Assembly: GCA_009602725.1 (NCBI GenBank)
Contig: WELB01000027.1
Location: 140,005 to 163,800, forward strand
Reading direction: 5' to 3'
DNA from: Spirogloea muscicola
Taxonomy: Eukaryota > Streptophyta > Zygnematophyceae > Spirogloeales > Spirogloeaceae
DNA length: 23,796 nt
Below the pieces are notes generated by a model. The model saw nothing but the letters and a program-made list of their open reading frames with translations. It was not told the origin of the DNA and did no database searches. Every line of letters begins with the position of its first letter. Within the stretch, counting starts at the first letter, position 1. The translations under genes were made by a program, and so were the position numbers. Below, one piece after another: positions 4,656-14,762 of this stretch.

Positions 4656-4823
4656 CTGCCGCCATGAGTGGATCTGCGTCTGTGCCGCCGCGACGAGGGC
4701 GGCCTGCAGGGCCTGTGGAGAAGGGCAAACGTCCGATGGGGGATTGTGACTGGAGACAACAAGAATCTGAGAATGTTGATCACAGCAGACAGGAGCAGGA
4801 ACAGGAGCAGCCAGACCAAGAAA
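4656..4823. repeat. Dispersed direct repeat, copy A
   Basis: About 168 bases closely match 5674-5842 in the same orientation. Shared stretches include GGCCTGTGGAGAAGGGCAAA and AATGTTGATCACAGCAGACA. The right-hand ~30 bases also form the outer end of the left arm of the fold-back structure at 4791-5214. Open frames exist on both strands (hydrophobic on the minus strand, Glu/Gln-rich on the plus strand), but neither is recognisable. It is best read as part of an interspersed repeat family. Confidence 0.75.
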
Positions 4824-5673: not shown

Positions 5674-5842
5674 CTGCCGCCGTGAGCGGATCTGCGTCTG
5701 CGCCGCCCGCAACGAGGGCGGCCTGCTGGGCCTGTGGAGAAGGGCAAACGTTCGATGGCGGATTCTGACTGGAGAATACAAGAATCTGAGAATGTTGATC
5801 ACAGCAGACAGGAGCAGGGAGAGGAGCAGCCAGACCAAGAAA
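5674..5842. repeat. Dispersed direct repeat, copy B
   Basis: Second copy of the 4656-4823 repeat, same orientation, with scattered substitutions (for example GGATTCTGACTGGAGAATAC against GGATTGTGACTGGAGACAAC). The match stops at the AGACCAAGAAA block. After it this copy has unrelated sequence, whereas copy A continues into the fold-back arm. Copy B is therefore a truncated member of the family or a half-element. Confidence 0.75.
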
Positions 5843-7160
5843 TAGCATACAGCCAACAAATAGGCGGCCGGCATGCCCATCTCGGGTGGAAGGATATCAC
5901 ACGTCGTGCATATTCTATAGTTGCTATTGTTTCAAGTAGGGTGTAAAGACGAGGACCCATGCAGCCAAAGTGTCAATTGCGGCTGGGAGGAGGTGATCGC
6001 TACGGGGTAGTCACAGTAGTGCTGCAGCTGTCTCTGCTCTGCACTTCCTCACTGCGTGGCCAGCAATGTGGGTCGTCGCTGAGCTCTTGTGCCTTTATTT
6101 GGAAGAGCTGCTGTGTCTTTTACGCCTCCGTCACAACCACATCGACCGAGTCTCGTGACCGACGCGGACGAGACGGACCAGAGGAGAGAAAGACTCATCT
6201 AGTAAAGGGGCGATGGCTTGTTGTGCGATATCCCGTCGGTGGCTCATTAGTGTCGGTGTTGACAAGGATGCGGAGGTTGTTGGCCTTAGGCGAGAAATCG
6301 CTAAGGATAGAAGTCTTGGCTAACTTCGAGTTAGCTAACTAGCTCTAGGCGGTGACAACCGCAGAGTAGTTTCCTCCGGCGGTGATAGCCGCGGAGAGGC
6401 TTCTGATTCACCCTCTCTCCAGAATCAGATAGGGGCGGCGAGTGGTTCCGCGAAGGCGGTAACCACCTGCATCACCTGCTTGGTGGGGCGGCGTCTAACC
6501 GTTCACCGCCACAAGCAGCTCTGTCAGACACTTGGGGCGGCGCCCTCCCGGGTTGCCCGACGCCCATATAGCCAAGCTCACAGCGCAGAACCCCTGCGCG
6601 GGCTCTCATTTCTGAATACTGGCCCAAGCCCTGCCTCTCTGCCCGCTCAACGCTCCATCTCCCCTCACCTCACAGGGGCTTCTGCCCAGCCGCTGGCACG
6701 CCGTTACGACCCTCGACAATCTTCCGCTGCCGACGGTAGCCTGCAATGGCCGCCGTCAACCATTCTGGCCATTTTGGCCTTCAGAGGTGGCTGCTTACGT
6801 GGATATTCGAGGGTGAGTCATTTCTCATTTTGGTGTGAAGGTGGGTCGCGAGCACGGCATCTCCAACCCGCTTCGGTCAGAAATGATACGTATCAACTTA
6901 GGTCGGCGCCGGAGCATCATCCGGATCTGGCGCCATCGCCTCGCTCATCAACGGTGCGTAGGCTCCCTCTGGGGCCATGGTCAATCAGTGCCTCGGCGCG
7001 CAGCGCTTTGCCTTCTTGCCACCAGCACCACACAAAGCCTCATGTAATTAGGCTGAGCGAACTCACGAAAGCATGTCGAAGGCATAATATGCCTCGATGA
7101 GCCGTGAGGACTCGGCTAGGCAGTGGTGGGGAAATGGTAGGTAGTGGTAGAAGTAAGTCT
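5843..7160. other. GC-rich repetitive stretch, no supported gene
   Basis: It contains a 15-base motif repeated with 30-base spacing (GGCGGTGACAACCGC at 6348 and GGCGGTGATAGCCGC at 6378), each able to form a small stem, and further GGCGG/AACC-type words up to about 6500. An open frame of 206 codons at 6480-7100 (+) is Ser/Arg/Pro-rich, with no domain and poor start context. It looks like chance opening in GC-rich repeat DNA, perhaps LTR or leader sequence of a retroelement. No RNA gene was recognised. Confidence 0.35.
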
Positions 7161-7247
7161 CAAGCCACAATAGCCTTGAGGCCGGGGGACCCAAATGGGC
7201 CAAATGGCCCACCCCAACAAACAATGTCATTCTTTATCTGACCAGGC

Positions 7248-7254
7248 ATAAAAG
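7248..7254 (+). promoter_or_regulatory. TATA-like box upstream of the repeat arm
   Basis: CATAAAA within GGCATAAAAGGGTG lies about 375 bases before the left arm of the large fold-back structure. It precedes GC-rich sequence, as expected for an LTR-type promoter reading rightward. There is no supporting initiator or second LTR copy, so this is only suggestive. Confidence 0.25.
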
Positions 7255-7350
7255 GGTGTGGAGGGCCAAGGCCCGAGCGATTCGCTCGGACTAGTCTCTC
7301 CCTTTGGCTGCTGCCAACCTTAGCCGCCATCGCTGCCGCCACTGCCGCCG

Positions 7351-7487
7351 CTGCCCAGTAAGCGTAGCGCGCGCGTCCAGGGCCACGCCAAGAAGGCGTG
7401 GGCCCATAGCTGTCGTCGCCGTCACTGCTGCTGCTGCTGCCCAGTGAGCGTACAACATCTCCAGGGCCACGCCAACAAAGCGTGGGC
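7351..7487. repeat. Two diverged tandem copies of a ~52-base unit
   Basis: CTGCCCAGTAAGCGTA ... CCAGGGCCACGCCAAGAAGG at 7351-7403 recurs as CTGCCCAGTGAGCGTA ... CCAGGGCCACGCCAACAAAG at 7437-7487. GCC/GCT triplet runs precede each. Within each copy the words CCACGCC and GGCGTGG (AGCGTGG in copy 2) can pair. The unit is just outside the large inverted repeat and may belong to the same element. Confidence 0.7.
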
Positions 7488-7736
7488 ACCGGCATAAAGC
7501 AGACCTACAGAGAGCCGTACCCCGACGAGCCCCGCATCCGGTCGCGACAGACCGGGCACGCACTGGGTAAGCCGCGAAGATCGCGACCTTGTGTGAACCG
7601 CCCAAGCCTAACCTTGGGCCTTCAGAGAGCCTTGCGAATACTCGCGAGCGACTCTCACTGTGCTCCATTGCATCCACCGCTTTGCGAGCTTACTCCATTG
7701 GCATCTTGCCCTCGTTCTTCTAAGTGACTCAGTTAC

Positions 7737-7897
7737 TCCGGGTTTGTGCCCTTGATCCTGTTCGGATAGTCTGGGTTTGTGCCCTTGAACCTGTTCGGAT
7801 ACTCTGGGTTTGTGCCCTTGAACCTGTTCGGACACTGGGTTGGTGCCCTTGAACTTGTTCGGATACTCTGGGCTAGTGCCCTTGAACTTGTTCGGTT
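7737..7897 (+). repeat. Five tandem 33-base units in the left arm
   Basis: The unit reads approximately TCTGGGTTTGTGCCCTTGAA followed by CCTGTTCGGATAC. Units 2 and 3 are nearly identical. Unit 3 is shortened by a few bases at its end, and units 4 and 5 carry GGTTGGTG/GGCTAGTG and ACTTG variants. Units abut with no unique spacers, so this is a minisatellite and not a CRISPR array. Confidence 0.85.
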
Positions 7898-8019
7898 ACT
7901 ACAATCGGTCCGTGATACTGTTCTCGAGGAACCCTCGCTGAGGGGTACTGTTGTTACGTCCTGTTACTCTTGTTCACATAACTTGCACGTGTCTTGACCA
8001 CCGACCTTTGTCCACTTAA

Positions 8020-8088
8020 GTAGTCCGAGCGAACCCGGTCGTCTGGCACGCATGGAGTCATATTGCCATTACTTAAGAATTGGACTAG
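8020..8088 (+). pseudogene. Loop of the fold-back: captured retroelement protease-region fragment
   Basis: On the plus strand it reads CGGTCGTCTGGCACGCATGG ... ATTACTTAAGAATTGGAC, encoding RSSGTHGVILPLLKNWT. The minus-strand element encodes RSSGTHRVIFPLLKNWT at 10915-10857. The two are inverted relative to each other and differ at a few bases. At least two copies of this retroelement have therefore contributed to the locus. Confidence 0.75.
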
Positions 8089-8207
8089 TTAAGTGGACAA
8101 AGGTCGGTGGTCAAGACACGTGCAAGTTATATGAACAAGAGTAACAGGACGTAACAACAGTACCCTCAGCGAGGGTTCCTTGAGAACAGTATCACGGACC
8201 GATTGTA

Positions 8208-8307
8208 GTAACCGAACAAGTTCAAGGGCACTAGCCCAGAGTATCCGAACAGGTTCAAGGGCACAAACCCAGAGTATCCGAACAGGTTCAAGGGCACAAA
8301 CCCGGGA
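8208..8307 (-). repeat. Three tandem 33-base units in the right arm
   Basis: Inverted counterpart of the left-arm array. Three units correspond to left-arm unit 5 (GGGCACTAGCC variant) and to units 2/1 (GGGCACAAACCC). The loss or gain of two units relative to the left arm indicates replication slippage or unequal exchange after the arms formed. Confidence 0.8.
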
Positions 8308-8420
8308 GTAACTGAGTCACTTAGAAGAACGAGGGCAAGATGCCAATGGAGTAAGCTCGCAAAGTGGTGGATGCAATGGAGCACAGTGAGAGTCGCTCGC
8401 AAGTATTCGCAAGGATCTCT

Positions 8421-8725
8421 CACAAGTGACCCAGATATGCTGCCTCAGTTAAAGCAAACCTGCATTTGCCAGGGTGACAGCGCAATCCAGCCTGTTGAAT
8501 AGCTGTAAGCACCACCGCAATATGAGTCAAGTGCTCTGTGAAATCTTGGCTAAATATTAACACATCATTATCGTAACAGCGTGCGAATGGAATGCCTTGC
8601 AGTACAACATCCAGAACACGTTGGGACATCATTGGAGCATTCTTAAAACCGAACGGCATTTTTATCCATTGGTATTGAACATGAATGCCACGACACACCC
8701 CCCAGAACGCCGTCTTATGCCTGTC
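8421..8725 (-). pseudogene. Ty3/gypsy-type reverse transcriptase, C-terminal palm part, with damaged active site
   Basis: In frame it gives KTAFWGV, then WIKMPFGFKNAP (RT fingers/palm motif) and CYDNDVLIFS, then HLTHIAVVL and the AYLGHL block that marks the end of the palm in Ty3/gypsy polymerases. The catalytic box is normally Y-x-D-D. Here it reads Y-D-N-D, so the first catalytic Asp is replaced by Asn. The segment is in a different frame from 8726-9252 because one base is missing near 8725. It ends abruptly at the fold-back arm; no RNase H or integrase follows. The element is non-functional as it stands. Confidence 0.85.
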
Positions 8726-9243
8726 TGAAGGTTGAATTTAATCTGGTTAAAACCCTGTCGACGGTCTAGCACTGAGAACAGCTTACTAGAGCCGACCTGA
8801 TTAAAGATTTCCTCAGGGGTAGGCATAGGATACCTGTCAAGAGGAGTGGATGCATTTAACTGGCGATGATCCCCACACATCCTCTTGTCAGTGTAGTTGC
8901 AAAATTCGTCTTTCTTGGCTGGCAGAACTGTGGGAGCTGCATAAGAACTGGTGGAAGATTCGATCAGTCCAATTGCCAACAGTTCTGCACATCGCTCCTC
9001 AATGAATTGATCCTCAATAGTAGACAAGGGATATTGTCGTTTGAAGATGGGTCTAGTCTCTGTTAAGTCGATCTGAAACTGAGCTCCTACATAGGTACCC
9101 AGGTCAGACGATGAGAAAGCAAAAGCATGTAATTTATCATTCAAAAGGGCAATGAGTTGCCGCTTATTTGTCACACTGAGTCCAGTCCCAAGTTGCCATT
9201 CATACTCAGTAAAAGAATGGTAGGCTTGGTGGCTAGAGATAGG
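8726..9243 (-). pseudogene. Ty3/gypsy-type reverse transcriptase, N-terminal part
   Basis: It shows the usual gypsy RT opening: IDLTETRPIFKRQYPLS, then FIEERCAELLAIGLIESSTS, SYAAPTVLPAKKD, RMCGDHRQLNA, PMPTPEEIFNQ and motif A LFSVLDRRQGFNQIKF with its catalytic Asp. RT copies element RNA into cDNA inside particles. It is in the same frame as the upstream methyltransferase, separated only by TGA at 9252-9250. No Met start is needed if expression is by readthrough. After FNLQ a one-base loss shifts the frame into 8421-8725. Confidence 0.85.
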
Positions 9244-9252
9244 TAATTGTCA
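9244..9252 (-). promoter_or_regulatory. Candidate translational readthrough site (TGA CAA TTA)
   Basis: The only break between the methyltransferase and RT frames is TGA (9252-9250), immediately followed by CAATTA. Stop codons followed by CARYYA are the well-known type I readthrough context, first described for tobamoviruses as UAG-CAA-UUA. Retroelements commonly place a recoding site before pol. Function is inferred from context only; a chance nonsense mutation is the alternative. Confidence 0.4.
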
Positions 9253-11078
9253 GAAGTCTGGCTCAGGTACTACTGGTGCATATAGACCGAGCATATTGAT
9301 GTCCAAATCAGACATATCTCGGGGATTCAATATAGCAGCAGCCTGCTTAACCTTGTAGTCGACCTGGATTGCATTACATACGCTAACTACCCAGGTCATG
9401 GAGTTAGAATCAAATGCCTGACCAGTCAGGCGAACATTAGTTTCAAAGGAAAAATGCGGCAGGGTGATGTCGCCTGGGTTGTAGCCCAGCCATATCTCAC
9501 GCTCCTTCAGCGTGGGCTCATCATAACGGCCTGTGTCCAGGTACCTCACCATACCCTGGGCTGGGACATTATTATGCATGCGGAAGTTTTCCGATGCAAC
9601 GGTAGCCACTAGGGTTGGGAAGGTGACTCTGGGAAAACCTTCATGATTGAAAGCATGTTCCCGGTTGTGACGATGGTCCACCGGGATTACCTCTTTGTTG
9701 GAATCCAAAGCCATATACGCATGAAGTTCAGGTGGACGCTGCTGCTTGTTGATGCAGCACTGCACCATCTGGGCAGGAGCAAGGTTGGTCCAGTGCACCC
9801 TTTTGCGGTCGGCCAGGGAACCCACCACTGCTGCATCCAAGATAGTGTAAGGACCTAGGATGTCACAAACAGACTGAAAGTCGTACCTAGCTTCGTGATG
9901 CCTTTCCCTCGGTTCTACATTTTCTATAATGTAGCCAAAAGGAAGGATCTGCCGGGCTCGGACGCCATGCATGAATTTGACCAATGATTTGAACAATCCG
10001 GTAGAAGGATGTCGAAAGCCTCTGCCAAGACCTAGACCACTAAATCCTTGACACGGAAACCCAGCAATGAGGAGGTCTACTTTCGGCAGCCTCCTGAGAG
10101 ACTCTGGTCTGGCGGCAGTTTGGATGTCCTGGGGCAGCATAGTGTCTCACTCAGTGGAAGTATCATCGTTGACGAGATTGGGGTACTGGCGACGAAGGAT
10201 GGCAATGTGATGTGCAGCGACTTCGCGAGCCTGAGGATCGTTGTCTATGTAGATGTATCGTGCCACCTTGATGTGGCTCTGCATAGCGGGTCTGAAGCCG
10301 TTGGCAGTACCACCGAAGACCTCCACGAGCACAATCCCATCCGGAGGTAGGGTCCAATCAATGACGCCATTATAGAAAATACCCATTTCTTCAACGACCT
10401 CCGTGCCCGCGATGGAAACCAGAGGTGGAATATGCGTGGTCAGTGTGTCAGCTGCCCAGGCTTCCGCTGCACGGGAATGAGCGACCACCGGGAAGCACAT
10501 TCGGGCAGCCTGGATACGCTCCCAGTGCTTCTCCACCTGTAAATGCTGTAGCTGCGGCTCGGTCATGCCCAAATTGCGCATAGGAATGTGAGGATTTGGG
10601 ACGTAGATCCTCAGAGGCTGCTGAGGTGGTGGCTGATCTGCGGAGGTTGATGCCAAACCCCGCTTGGTTGTCAAGCTCAGAACCCGCGCTGGAGGTACAA
10701 TCGGTGGCAGTATCGGGAGATCTGCAACGTCGTCCTGCATTTCTGATTTGCCCTTGTCTGCATTGGGCAAATGAACATCATCAGTAACAGTGTCATCGTC
10801 TTCTGAAGATGAACTTCTGTCAATAGCACCGGTATGCACCCTTATGTCAGTACACGTCCAATTCTTAAGTAACGGGAATATGACTCTATGCGTGCCAGAC
10901 GACCGCCATTCTGGTCGATACCAAGCAACCTCTGCATAGTAATCTATGCCAAAGCCCAATGGAATCAAGAATTCTGTCCCAAGCAATACATCATATGTAG
11001 TTGCCCTAGTGATCAGACACACAGTCGAAAAGTAGGTGCGCCGACGGGAGTCTGTAGCGTGTAGGGTAATGCGAAGGG
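9250..11078 (-). pseudogene. Retroelement protease tail fused to C5 cytosine DNA methyltransferase
   Basis: One frame from 11078 to 9250, interrupted by TGA at 10149-10147. The first part has YDVLLGTEFLIPLG, the C-terminal signature of retropepsin-like proteases; the catalytic DTG lies upstream and is missing. An acidic linker follows. The methyltransferase has motif I LVEVFGGTANGF (10329-10294, SAM binding), motif IV PCQGFSGLG with the catalytic Cys at 10053-10051, motif VI ENVEPRER (E at 9924-9922), motif VIII DRKRVHWTNL, and C-terminal REIWLGYNPGDI and VVSVCNAIQ resembling motifs IX-X. Such enzymes methylate cytosine C5 in DNA. All catalytic residues I can check are kept. The internal TGA falls between motifs I and IV, where CGA to TGA would explain it. 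Its place between protease and RT shows it is element cargo, not a host gene. Confidence 0.85.
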
Positions 11079-11427
11079 GTTTTTAGCAACAACTCCTCCG
11101 GTGTTGTCCGTCTTCAAGGGTCTTGTGGCAGGGAAAATTTCTGATCACATCCAGAATGTTTCTCCCTGTCATCTAACCAATATTGATCCTACTATAGATC
11201 ATACACAGCAGTGTGTCTCTATTCACTTGTCGTGTGAAGTTTGCACTCGGAAAGACCACGCTGCAGCTATGTTGTTATGCTCTATGTGTAATCGAGGGTG
11301 GCATATTCATTGTCTAACCCCACCGCTCACAAGTATCCCTCCAGATGACTGGTTTTGCAGAACTTGTTCGGGTTCAAACCCACCTCCTTCGCCTGTCCCA
11401 GGACTTGAAGCTGGGGGGGGGGTATAA
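11065..11427 (+). pseudogene. C-terminal end of a plus-strand retroelement polyprotein with PHD finger
   Basis: The frame is open from 11065 to a TAA at 11425-11427, with no start codon, so it is a 3' remnant. After VLSVFKGLVAGKISD comes a C4-H-C3 PHD zinc finger: C-x2-C at 11233-11244, C-x2-C at 11278-11289, H-x2-C (WHIHC) at 11302-11313, and the final W-F-C-x2-C ending at 11367. PHD fingers read histone H3 tails. When at the end of a retroelement polyprotein they plausibly steer integration, as chromodomains do in chromoviruses (inference). It directly abuts the minus-strand protease segment, so a rearrangement joined two element pieces. Integrase is absent. Confidence 0.7.
11414..11423 (+). 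promoter_or_regulatory. Polypurine tract (ten G)
   Basis: GAAGCT is followed by ten consecutive G residues, ending just before the stop codon of the PHD frame and the LTR-like region. Retroelements prime plus-strand DNA synthesis from such a purine run next to the 3' LTR. Position and composition fit; no second LTR is available to fix the boundary. Confidence 0.6.
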
Positions 11428-12148
11428 ATTGTTCATTTCGCTCCAAGTTCTCAATTGCTAACCACGCCATCTGTTGGTTGTTCTATTTTATTATTTTCTG
11501 TTCTTTTGTTTTCTTCTCCTACGAAAGTAGCTTCTAAAGTCCTCGTAGACCTTCTTCCTGCCTCATTTCATTAAGTGTCCACCATTCCATATTGGTTTGT
11601 TGCCTGCTTCCGTCCTACCCTGACTTCTCGACGCTATCTGGCAATCGACGCCCTGTGGCACGACAGGCTGTAGTTGGCCAGCCCAGAAAGCTAAGTCCAG
11701 AGAGCCCCCGGAGACTAGTATCTCCGACCTGCGATACTGAGCATCCAGTGGCCACTTTGGTCGTTTACCCCTGATTGGCCGCGTCTTCTTCGAATGCAGT
11801 TCATTCTCTTGTGCTGGCCGACTGCTGCCTCTGGCTCTGGCCAGGGGACCCAGTTCCACGCGCCAAGCATCTCTGATCTGCGGCTGCTTGGTAGGGGTTA
11901 CTGACTGATTCGTAGCTGCTTTGTTTCTCTGTGTGCTTGTTTATCTTAGCGCTTCCCCTGGCCCCCTTCTCGTACTTTTTTCATTCTTTTCCGGGCTGGC
12001 TTTCCCAGCCCCTATCCTCAATGGGCGAGCACTTTCTTCTGATCACAGCCATCGCCCGTCGCCTAGCCTGTGGCCTGTGGCTCCGTCATGAACATCTCCA
12101 TGCATCTGCTGGCTTGTTACAGACGCTCTTTTAATAGAAGAATCAACA
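11424..12148 (+). mobile_element. Putative 3' LTR of the PHD-finger retroelement
   Basis: About 720 bases between the polypurine tract and the 5' end of paralog 2. The sequence is pyrimidine-rich and non-coding, with likely ends near TGTTCATTTC (11431) and AATCAACA (12141-12148), which would give TG...CA termini. Boundaries are inferred from position because no 5' LTR partner was found; 7160-7620 does not match it. The ORFs here have no recognisable content. Confidence 0.5.
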
Positions 12149-12306
12149 CAGCACCGGATTCATCCATTTACTGCAAGACTCTTTCGCCCCTGGCGGCCAG
12201 TCGCCGCTTCCGCCTCCGGCGGCGTCGGCGGCGGCGGCGGCGGCGGCGGCGCAGGATGGCGAGCCACCCCAGCTGGCGTCCGGGCAGCCTCTCGGCGGCT
12301 CCGCAT

Positions 12307-12307
12307 N
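12307..12307. other. Undetermined base (N)
   Basis: A single N lies in the GC-rich 5' end of paralog 2. The frame used by the gene is open on both sides of it, so no indel is required. An assembly error here could nevertheless hide the true start codon. Confidence 0.95.
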
Positions 12308-14762
12308 GGGCCCGCTGCGCAGCCATTGCCGCCGGTCTGCCCGGCGCGGCAGCCTACGCCGAGCGTCGAGGACCTGCTCAGGCTCCTGGCGCCCGCCGCG
12401 CTCGACGGAGCCGGCGCCGGCGCCGGCGCCGAGGTGAAGCCGGCGACAGCTCACGAGCAGGCGCACGACGACCAGCTCCCCGACGACGTGCGGCACCGCT
12501 CGCCCTCCATCGTCGTGCCTGCCAGCGAGGGGTCCACGTCTGCAGCTGCCAGCCCCGCCGGCGGCGGCGGCGGCGGCATGGCCCCGTGGAAGCAGCCGGC
12601 GCGAGCGGCGGCCAAGTACGCCGCCGCCGAGCGCCCCAATAAGCCGCGGCGCAGCCCGTCGCCGAGGCTGCCGCCGGCCAGCTCGGAGCAGGTGAGGGTC
12701 ATGGCGGGCGTCGGGCGGTGGCTGGCGCGGCTCATGGCCGCGCGGGCGGCGGCGGCGGGCTACGAGAACTCGGGCGTGCGGCAGCTGTTCGAGCGGGACA
12801 CGGGGCGCGCGATCGACCTCAAGATGCTCGGTTTCACGCGCTTGATCGCGCTGTTCGCCAAGTTCGACTGCGTTTTGACCATCTGGCACTTCCCCACGGG
12901 CTCGCCCTGCCGCCTCTTCCCGCCCGGCGTGAAGCCCCCGCCGGAGGCCCGGAGAAACGTCCCGCTGGACGGGTCCTGCTCCGTGGACTACCCCCCGGCC
13001 GTGTTCCCGTCCGAGGAGTACCTCCAGCACTGCCGGAGGCACCGGGACGCCTCCAAGACGGTGGCGCTGCTGGCGGACCTCCACTACTTTCTGGACAAAG
13101 TGCTGGAAGGCCCCGAGGCCCGGGACGGGCTGTACGTCGAGTCGCTGCTGGAGCGGTTCGGCGCGAACTACTGCTGGCGGGTGGACGCTGCCCGCCGGGG
13201 CCTGCTGTACGACGTCGTCAGAGCGAGGGCCTGCCTCACGGACTCTGGGTACGTGTACCAGCGCCCGCCAGCCGCGGCTGGCGAGGTCGGCACGTCCGTG
13301 CCGACGGCTGCGGCGCCCTCAGACCGCCATCCGGACATGGATGACGCAAAGAGGCATCCGTATCCCCGTGGTGAAGTGGCTGGTGAGTCCCCCCGGGGCT
13401 TAGTAGCTCCTGGGTGGACGCTCGACGTGCCTCCACGTCGCGAAGACGACTCAGGCAGTCACCAGTATGAGGCGCAGCGCTCGGGTGCTGGCACCTCCGC
13501 TCCTCGAGTGGCCTCGCCCTCTGCGAGTAGCCAATCTCTGTCGCTCGCAGCATGGCAGCAGCCGCAGCAGGCTGCTGAGAGCAGGCCGTTGCCTGCGACG
13601 CTCAGAGCAGCTCAATCCACGCTTGACGGCAACAGGACACAAGTTTTGTTGCCCGTCAAGCAGGAGAATGACGTGCCGAGCAGGGCGAAGCCCTGTCCAG
13701 CTTCTCAGCAGGTTTCTAGTGAGAAGCTGGACGTTGTTGGTAGTGGAGATGCAGCTCACTCGGCAGACGTGGGCACTGGTCAGCCGGTGCCCATCTATAC
13801 CTCGCAAGTGGCTGTTGCAGTTGCAGGAGCTGCGGTGGAGGCTCAGGTTAAGCTGGGAGGGAACTGTGTGCAGCCTGGTGAGACCTACTCTGCTGTCTTG
13901 CGTGCAAGGCGTGTGCTGCCCAAACAAGAGATGCCAGAGGAGCAGCTAGAAGGGCATGGGGTTTTCCTGGCAGGGACAGGCACTCCTGAAGCTCGGGCAG
14001 AGGGCAAACGAAGCTTCGCTTTGGCATTAGAGGGGGATATGCAGCTGGAAGATCCAGTGAAGAAGCCCAAGACATCAGATGCCGGTGTGCCAGATTACAT
14101 ACCACTACTGGACAATGTGCCGGCTGAAGAAGCCACTTTGGCGCAGAGTCCTGACAAGCTGCTCCCACAAGAAGACAGTCATCAAGTCACTTGTCCAAAG
14201 GAGGTGAGGCCAATCTGCTTTCTGTATTGAGATGCCTGCGCTACTTGACCTGTGGTTGAGCGATGGGTGTGATGAGGGTTTGGTCACAGCTTAGAGTGCA
14301 AGTTCCCATCAACACTGAAGTAGAGGGACAGTATCGGCTCATCAGCCAAGCACTTCATGCTTGCAGGACAAGGGCACTGCCAAAGCACAGGTTACACCAG
14401 CCAGTCAGGCCGCAGTGCAGGTGGAGAGGAGTGCAAGTGCAGACTTGCTCCGGACTGGCTCACAGCGAGTAGAGGAGATGGTGCTGCAAGGCAGTCGGGC
14501 CGCTTTGCTAGCAAACGTGTCAGAGGTGTCTGAGCTACATACAAGAGATGCTGCACGAGCTGATGAGGAGCAGGAAGCTGACGACTTGCGTCAGGAGGTT
14601 GCGAGGGCAGAGTTGCAAGCACTTATGCAACTAGGGAAAGTGGCATTGTTGAAGCTCAGAGTGCATGAGCGCCAGGGCCAAAAGTTGTACGCTGAGCTGG
14701 AGCAGATTATGGCTGATATTAAGGTACAAGGCCATAAGGTGAGCAGGTTGTCACTGCCTTGA
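12308..14762 (+). CDS. LOTUS/OST-HTH-like protein with C-terminal coiled coil, paralog 2
   Basis: Function unknown. Two exons: up to 14203 (GAG|GTGAGG) and 14367-14762, both phase 0, with a 163-base intron. The first in-frame ATG is 12578; coding-like sequence (PTPSVEDLLRLLAP) continues upstream to the N and beyond without ATG, so the true start is uncertain. Counting from 12578, residues 37-107 form a winged-helix-like module (GVGRWLARLM, LFERDTGRAIDLKMLGF, VLTIWHFP) comparable to LOTUS/OST-HTH. Residues 145-220 form a second module (SEEYLQHCRR, LLERFGANYCW). A Ser/Gln/Pro-rich middle with a basic patch (DPVKKPKT) follows. Exon 2 gives a coiled coil (LRQEVARAELQAL, LYAELEQIMADIK). The whole layout parallels the gene at 82-2512. 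Another donor-like AAG|GTACAA or AAG|GTGAGC near the end could extend it. Confidence 0.7.

Follow-up and report, generated by a model that had tools for sequence, protein, structure and literature searches.

The window, i.e., the whole stretch of 23,796 nucleotides analysed here, carries a retroelement with a C5 cytosine DNA methyltransferase (DNMT) between a protease (PR) and a reverse transcriptase (RT). We consider it quite likely that this is a decayed copy, with its interior inverted, of a Ty3/gypsy-type family that is present in many copies and encodes Gag, PR and DNMT, then a programmed leaky stop, UAG or UGA with the hexamer CARYYA directly after it, and then RT, RNase H, integrase and a PHD finger. 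The observations behind this reading are the domain order, the stop with its hexamer, selection on the DNMT, split repeats in some copies, and TG..CA ends.

On the minus strand, the open reading frames (ORFs) at 11082-10147, 10146-9250, and 9249-8662 are consecutive segments of a single frame (Table 1). The original prediction had read a PR tail, a C5 methyltransferase and a Ty3/gypsy RT in one minus-strand frame; order and strand held, while the frame proved not to be open, being interrupted by two stops and an RT frameshift. The PR tail YDVLLGTEF and DNMT motifs I (EVFGGTANG), IV (GFPCQGFS), VI (IENV), and VIII (ADRKRVHWTN) were found where it had placed them, and motif X (GQAFDSN) follows, giving the order I-IV-VI-VIII-X. 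Pfam recognized DNA_methylase on 9253-10146 (E=1.1e-10) and RVT_1 on 8423-8737 (E=3e-14). Neither the ORF that holds PR (10150-11082) nor the RT piece at 8662-9249 was recognized, so PR and the first part of RT rest on their likeness (53% and 62%) to L061, a relative on contig C2. With a premature stop in the DNMT and a frameshift in RT, the window copy is broken.

Table 1. Features of the element in the window, in order of position
Feature	Position	Strand	Basis
Target site duplication GGCT, left	6215..6218	+	Flank comparison
Whole integrated element, rearranged, ends TGTTGTGC...GCACGACA	6219..11665	+	Breakpoints common to L062, L061, L064 and others
5' untranslated/terminal region A, interrupted at about 6278-6784 by ~0.5 kb of inserted DNA	6219..7716	+	89-94% to L062 106-1510
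Large palindrome, main arms 96-98% complementary	7624..8420	.	Repeat search
Inverted interior with PR tail, DNMT and RT	8421..11082	-	ORFs, domain map, comparison with L062
RT catalytic part, shifted frame	8459..8737	-	RVT_1 E=3e-14; domain map
RT first part, same frame as DNMT	8740..9249	-	62% to L061
CAATTA hexamer directly 3' of the stop (fits CARYYA)	9244..9249	-	CARYYA in 26/31 junctions
Stop (TGA) between DNMT and RT, kept across the family	9250..9252	-	ORFs; junctions read
C5 cytosine methyltransferase, DNMT3-like, interrupted	9262..10377	-	Pfam, domain map, motifs, PDB profile of kin
Premature stop within DNMT, window copy	10147..10149	-	DNMT frames of L061-L064 open at the same place
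Retropepsin (PR) C-terminal part	10828..11082	-	tblastn to L061 PR, 53%
Integrase C-terminal tail, frameshifted	11079..11199	+	Domain map
PHD finger, polyprotein end	11188..11421	+	Pfam PHD 1.7e-10; 65% to L061 tail
3' terminal region B	11424..11665	+	89% to L062 6641-6884
Target site duplication GGCT, right	11666..11669	+	Flank comparison

The family and its methyltransferase

The genome searched (153 Mb, 471 contigs) contains at least 55 DNA matches to the 8421-11078 stretch, at least 71 Pfam DNA_methylase matches (a few being host genes), and at least 95 matches to the DNMT-junction protein. In L061, a 1411-codon frame (zinc knuckle, PR, DNMT) is followed by one TAG and a 1037-codon frame (RT, RNase H, H2C2, rve integrase, PHD), and the order Gag-PR-DNMT-RT-RNaseH-integrase-PHD recurs when domains are mapped over 64 loci, some of which overlap, together with the window, many mapped copies being deleted or partly inverted. 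Copies that keep the PR-DNMT-RT order, for which the original prediction had suggested a search, are thus present in the genome. The second L061 frame has the Pfam order RT-RNaseH-integrase with a Ty3-like RT, the best PDB match is Ty3-G (349 bits), and the Pfam matches of both L061 frames include no tyrosine recombinase, the integrase being of the rve/DDE type.

The methyltransferase is not limited to the window copy. Of the 36 family RTs (at least 50% identity to L061) among the best 80 of 89 RT matches, 31 have a DNMT match no more than 3 kb away; none of the 44 remaining gypsy RTs, which reach 41% at most, has one. With such a neighbour at 31 of 36 family RTs among the matches listed, the association is not due to chance. 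The zero and the five DNMT-less family RTs were rechecked against all 71 DNA_methylase places; of these five, C36 and C17 look deleted, C142:374k is masked upstream, and C2:711k and C445 were unread. The PHD tail gave 122 genome matches, the first 56 all at 50% identity or more and later ones including host PHD proteins.

A profile built from the element methyltransferase and its kin matched DNMT3A (54 bits) and DNMT3B (47) in PDB ahead of HhaI (35) and DRM2 (24), with HaeIII between the last two, and none of its 56 matches was named DNMT1 or CMT. The enzyme thus appears DNMT3-like, short of a proven DNMT3. By the Nei-Gojobori method, the ratio of nonsynonymous to synonymous substitution rates (dN/dS) was 0.11-0.16 for five DNMT pairs with dS of 0.48-1.30, and 0.06-0.21 for RT (seven pairs); the uncorrected ratio (pN/pS) for DNMT was 0.17-0.61 over all pairs. 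Purifying selection acts on the element DNMT. Trees of DNMT and RT, built from single-frame pieces, have a common deep split and therefore fit a single capture before the clades separated. As for a host DNMT with introns as the origin, which had been raised beforehand, such a gene does exist, at C256:20560-22500 (read in part), and is a DNMT1 whose catalytic motifs lie on different exons; the element DNMT is intronless. C168:177-179k and C234:114-116k show the same exon-match pair as this DNMT1. Overall, the idea of a Ty3/gypsy-type element with a captured, intronless, DNMT3-like methyltransferase in PR-DNMT-RT order and in many copies was upheld.

A third, more distant group has RTs with 50-59% identity to L061, and its DNMTs share about 43-55% identity with a family of metagenomic proteins, whose members differ enough from the genome copies to suggest other hosts. 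A viral contig scan found one weak relative (L069, 32%, query residues 153-249), and the GTDB genome contigs scanned contained none. In protein databases, no relative was found with the PR-DNMT portion of L061 as query, and its integrase-PHD tail matched a single PHD protein, from a fungus. One PR-DNMT frame of the third group (L070, C361:39200-42700) reads GWECQGHS at motif IV, without the usual proline preceding the catalytic cysteine. Small derivatives with internal deletions occur as L059/L068 (C240), L057 (C16), and L011/L019 (C66, C89), the last two sharing a near-identical deletion from DNMT to RT, as would result from movement of a non-autonomous form. Splicing was rejected as the source of the L068 deletions, since at every join ~10 bp are common to both aligned pieces, pointing to microhomology, and L057 is not one simple element but tandem and inverted pieces.

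The original prediction had named a charophyte and a dinoflagellate as sources of retroelements with captured cytosine methyltransferases, and this precedent is correct: KnitGypsy-Dnmt3 of Klebsormidium nitens is a DNMT-carrying Gypsy retrotransposon (PMC5890265), and such elements are also mentioned in PMC12344493. The leading alternative to a separate family is that our element is KnitGypsy-Dnmt3 itself, from a Klebsormidium alga, with the stop and PHD tail present in the published element and undiscussed by its authors; we find the arguments for and against this about equal in weight. Both have Gypsy domains, an intronless Dnmt3-type (here DNMT3-like) domain in a polyprotein, multiple copies, DIRS-like repeat order, and purifying selection on the DNMT (PMC5890265), and the present genome has chlorophyll a/b-binding genes (68 exon matches). 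Against identity, the main text of PMC5890265 contains no PHD, readthrough, or gag, and it places the DNMT in the Pol polyprotein ORF. It was the sole report on KnitGypsy-like elements that our literature search returned.

Stop and hexamer between DNMT and RT

Junctions between DNMT and RT were read in 31 copies (L083 and L086 dropped; C36 included though it lacks PR and DNMT). A stop codon is present in 28 of them (TAG 19, TGA 9, TAA 0), and CARYYA directly follows the stop position in 26. By comparison, five open frames have in-frame CARYYA at 0.27% of codon positions, and a CAR codon is followed there by YYA in 16 of 256 cases. The residue after Q varies (L, P, or S; R or T in two deviants), and the third base of that codon is A in 30 of 31 junctions versus 27% for L/P/S/T/R codons in the five frames. 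Because the residue varies while the bases stay, what is conserved is an RNA word and not the protein. Within clade II of the trees, the window uses TGA at this stop and C341 uses TAG, and the hexamer is also kept in the distant third clade, even in C36.

CARYYA is described as the readthrough signal of tobacco mosaic virus (TMV), with which UGA works about as well as UAG and UAA far less (PMC4132726), and the presence of TAG and TGA and absence of TAA here agree with that efficacy. Reported readthrough with CARYYA is ~15% in one mammalian reporter, and ~10% for TMV (PMC2754532, PMC4132726), and readthrough candidates are mentioned among rice gypsy elements (PMC2754532). Reassignment of the stop codon was rejected: L061 has a single TAG, at this junction, in 2449 codons, so TAG is unlikely to be a sense codon. 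The DNMT most likely belongs with Gag, ahead of a stop at which readthrough is programmed. It had been proposed to lie inside pol between PR and RT; the position stands, but expression as part of pol is improbable, since the Gag-PR-DNMT frame closes with the DNMT and a conserved stop of the readthrough type follows.

Alternatively, readthrough does not occur, and RT arises through reinitiation or splicing or from a subgenomic RNA; CARYYA would then be a relic of ancestry. This has in its favour that three junctions (C134, C365, C269) carry a sense codon, readthrough here being predicted from sequence. Five hexamers deviate by one base each (CAACGA, CAAACA, CGATCA, CAATCG, CCATCA), and the junction copies are related, so that the 31 are not independent events. 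Sense codons and deviant hexamers would, however, be expected of decayed copies, and a relic accounts poorly for a hexamer that stays constant while the encoded residue changes, for a stop that alternates between TAG and TGA but is never TAA, and for retention of the hexamer in the third clade, including the copy that has lost PR and DNMT. We therefore regard a stop that is never read through as improbable and retain programmed readthrough.

Ends, split repeats, and rearrangement

The element has TG..CA ends and 4-bp target duplications of the integrase type. Identical 4-bp flanks were found in all seven copies with both flanks read: GGCT in the window and in L061, CGCC in L062, GGTC in L064, GTGC in C328, and, for units consisting of regions A and B, CCGC in C384 and ACTG in C274. 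Copies flanked by long terminal repeats (LTRs) had been anticipated; ordinary LTRs were not found in L061, C65, or C328, and the two ends of L061 share no direct repeat. Instead, the end of B is followed by the start of A (spacer 0-6) at seven places in the genome, with the spacer GC each time and no occurrence of the reversed control. By coordinates, C65 and C328 have the arrangement A1-coding-B1-GC-A2-B2, C328 being internally rearranged, and C384, C274, C137, and C52 are A-B units without space for a coding region. Ten places, counting that of the query itself, have region B at 99-100% identity, suggesting that the element moved recently. Five primer-site words matched region A only with 2-4 mismatches.

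The 8421-11078 stretch had first been taken as the element, but it is only the inverted interior of an element whose plus-strand termini are 6219 and 11665. Regions A and B of the window copy, both on the plus strand, are 88-94% identical to L062, and between them lie the palindrome, with a 50-bp fragment of the PR region at 8036-8085, and the inverted PR-DNMT-RT block. GGCT stands on both outer ends, and therefore the rearranged unit as a whole occupies an integrase-type insertion site. The plus-strand PHD finger at 11188-11421, judged by its sequence, is the element's own 3' end and no host gene.

That the inversions and palindromes in and around the copies are artefacts of assembly or amplification has little probability in our view: inverted fragments adjoining copies are indeed common, but the window palindrome has main arms that are 2-4% divergent, and the rearranged window copy is bounded by a target duplication. 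The weakest alternative, a host DNMT pseudogene hit by a gypsy insertion, is suggested only by the window copy taken alone and is practically excluded, being refuted by copy number (31 of the 36 family RTs among the matches listed have a DNMT match nearby), by concordant DNMT and RT trees, and by an element DNMT that is intronless where the host gene, as far as read, is a DNMT1 in separate exons.

Several further observations concern copies and their surroundings. Head-to-head inverted element pieces are frequent, e.g., L002/L014, L004/L005, L012, L015/L018, and L049/L053/L055 (C31, C60, C51, C20, C91). A short repeat lies near but outside several copies in either orientation (window 11822-12040; L061 365-689; L067 1500-1822 and 7840-8152; L063 8226-8497). 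Outside the element, the window also has a 136-nt direct repeat (4688-4823 and 5707-5842, 93% identical, 1019 bases apart) and two related Gly/Ala-rich plus-strand reading frames that flank the element (1-1290 and 12092-14230), probably host genes, with 79% identity over 96 nt (279-374 and 12670-12765) and no Pfam match.

Proposed mechanism and comparison with known systems

We propose that most ribosomes would end after the DNMT, making Gag-PR-DNMT the main product, and that a minority would read through to give the RT-integrase-PHD extension. The DNMT would then be packaged at Gag-like amounts and could methylate CG sites, either in freshly made cDNA or around the target, and the PHD finger on the integrase, which in PDB is closest to the fingers of KMT2C/D, CHD4, and ATXR5 (UHRF1 further down the list), may read the histone H3 tail and guide insertion. 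Methylation of the element's own or of host DNA, also suggested in the original prediction, is something we infer.

A number of points weigh against this reading. Readthrough, CG methylation, and self-methylation are all predictions. The ratio of observed to expected CpG (0.67 in L061 and 0.74 in the window; 0.68 and 0.71 in host flanks) resembles that of the host flanks and gives no sign of special methylation, and the Klebsormidium enzyme yielded no methylation in yeast, a result that its authors called inconclusive (PMC5890265). With L061 as a single sequence, HhaI (30 bits) outscored DNMT3A (25) in PDB, and an AlphaFold2 model (P0003, alignment A1) reached a pLDDT of 28 only. The DNMT dN/dS extends to 0.06-0.31 in 13 pairs with dS of 1.6-3.2, and reaches 0.45 in a single pair of very recent origin (dS 0.09); all other DNMT pairs are saturated at synonymous sites. 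For Gag, the zinc knuckle is the only Pfam match, and PR matches fall below cut-off: L061 scores 18.3 and 21.9 bits for knuckle and PR against cut-offs of 20.8 and 28.2, missing both, and in L063 and L064 the knuckle is above its cut-off and PR below.

A standing question about DNMT-carrying retrotransposons is how the enzyme benefits the element. A DNMT placed before a readthrough-type stop predicts both its amount (with Gag, well above RT) and its place (the particle). In addition, the family offers a natural series of stop-codon contexts for the study of readthrough, and a Gypsy-type element with split repeats raises the question of how its ends are remade. A broader proposal, which we put forward as an even call, is that the family is a lineage with the DNMT as a Gag-level structural component made via a leaky stop, a PHD-tailed integrase that reads H3, and replication by way of PAT/DIRS-style split repeats combined with a DDE integrase, i.e., a self-contained write-and-read chromatin system with three clades in one genome and, judging by the metagenomic DNMT kin, probably present in other organisms.

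A soybean element has a similar stop ahead of its envelope-like gene. Tca2 has UGA between gag and pol (PMC2194720). The closest parallel to the putative signal is the tobamovirus UAG-CARYYA, alike in stop identity (UAG/UGA) and 3' hexamer (PMC2754532, PMC4132726), whereas here the signal is recognized from sequence, in a retroelement and between DNMT and RT. The split direct repeats of PAT/DIRS elements (A1-...-B1-A2-B2) are arranged as here, but those elements use tyrosine recombinases and this family a DDE integrase with 4-bp target duplications (PMC4157794). Chromoviruses and other Gypsy elements likewise have a reader domain on the integrase C-terminus (PMC12477816, PMC3605345), which is a chromodomain or Tudor tail in the Ectocarpus Gypsy elements described in PMC12477816 and a PHD finger here; PHD on a Gypsy-type integrase is reported for the DNA transposon Ginger1-9_HM (PMC2836005). 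Among the literature entries examined, none reported a PHD-tailed retrotransposon integrase combined with CARYYA readthrough.

Among elements with captured C5 methyltransferases, SymbioDIRS-Dnmt3 and SymbioLINE-Dnmt of Symbiodinium are likewise retroelements, and the SymbioDIRS-Dnmt3 type yields CG methylation in yeast; they use tyrosine recombinase or LINE machinery in place of a DDE integrase, and their capture was independent according to the authors (PMC5890265). KnitGypsy-Dnmt3 is nearer, and compared by description only, our family differs from it in having the DNMT before a conserved stop-CARYYA and an integrase with a PHD end. Overall, the class of DNMT-carrying retrotransposons is already known, and the stop-CARYYA after the DNMT together with the PHD tail appears to be new relative to the main text of PMC5890265.

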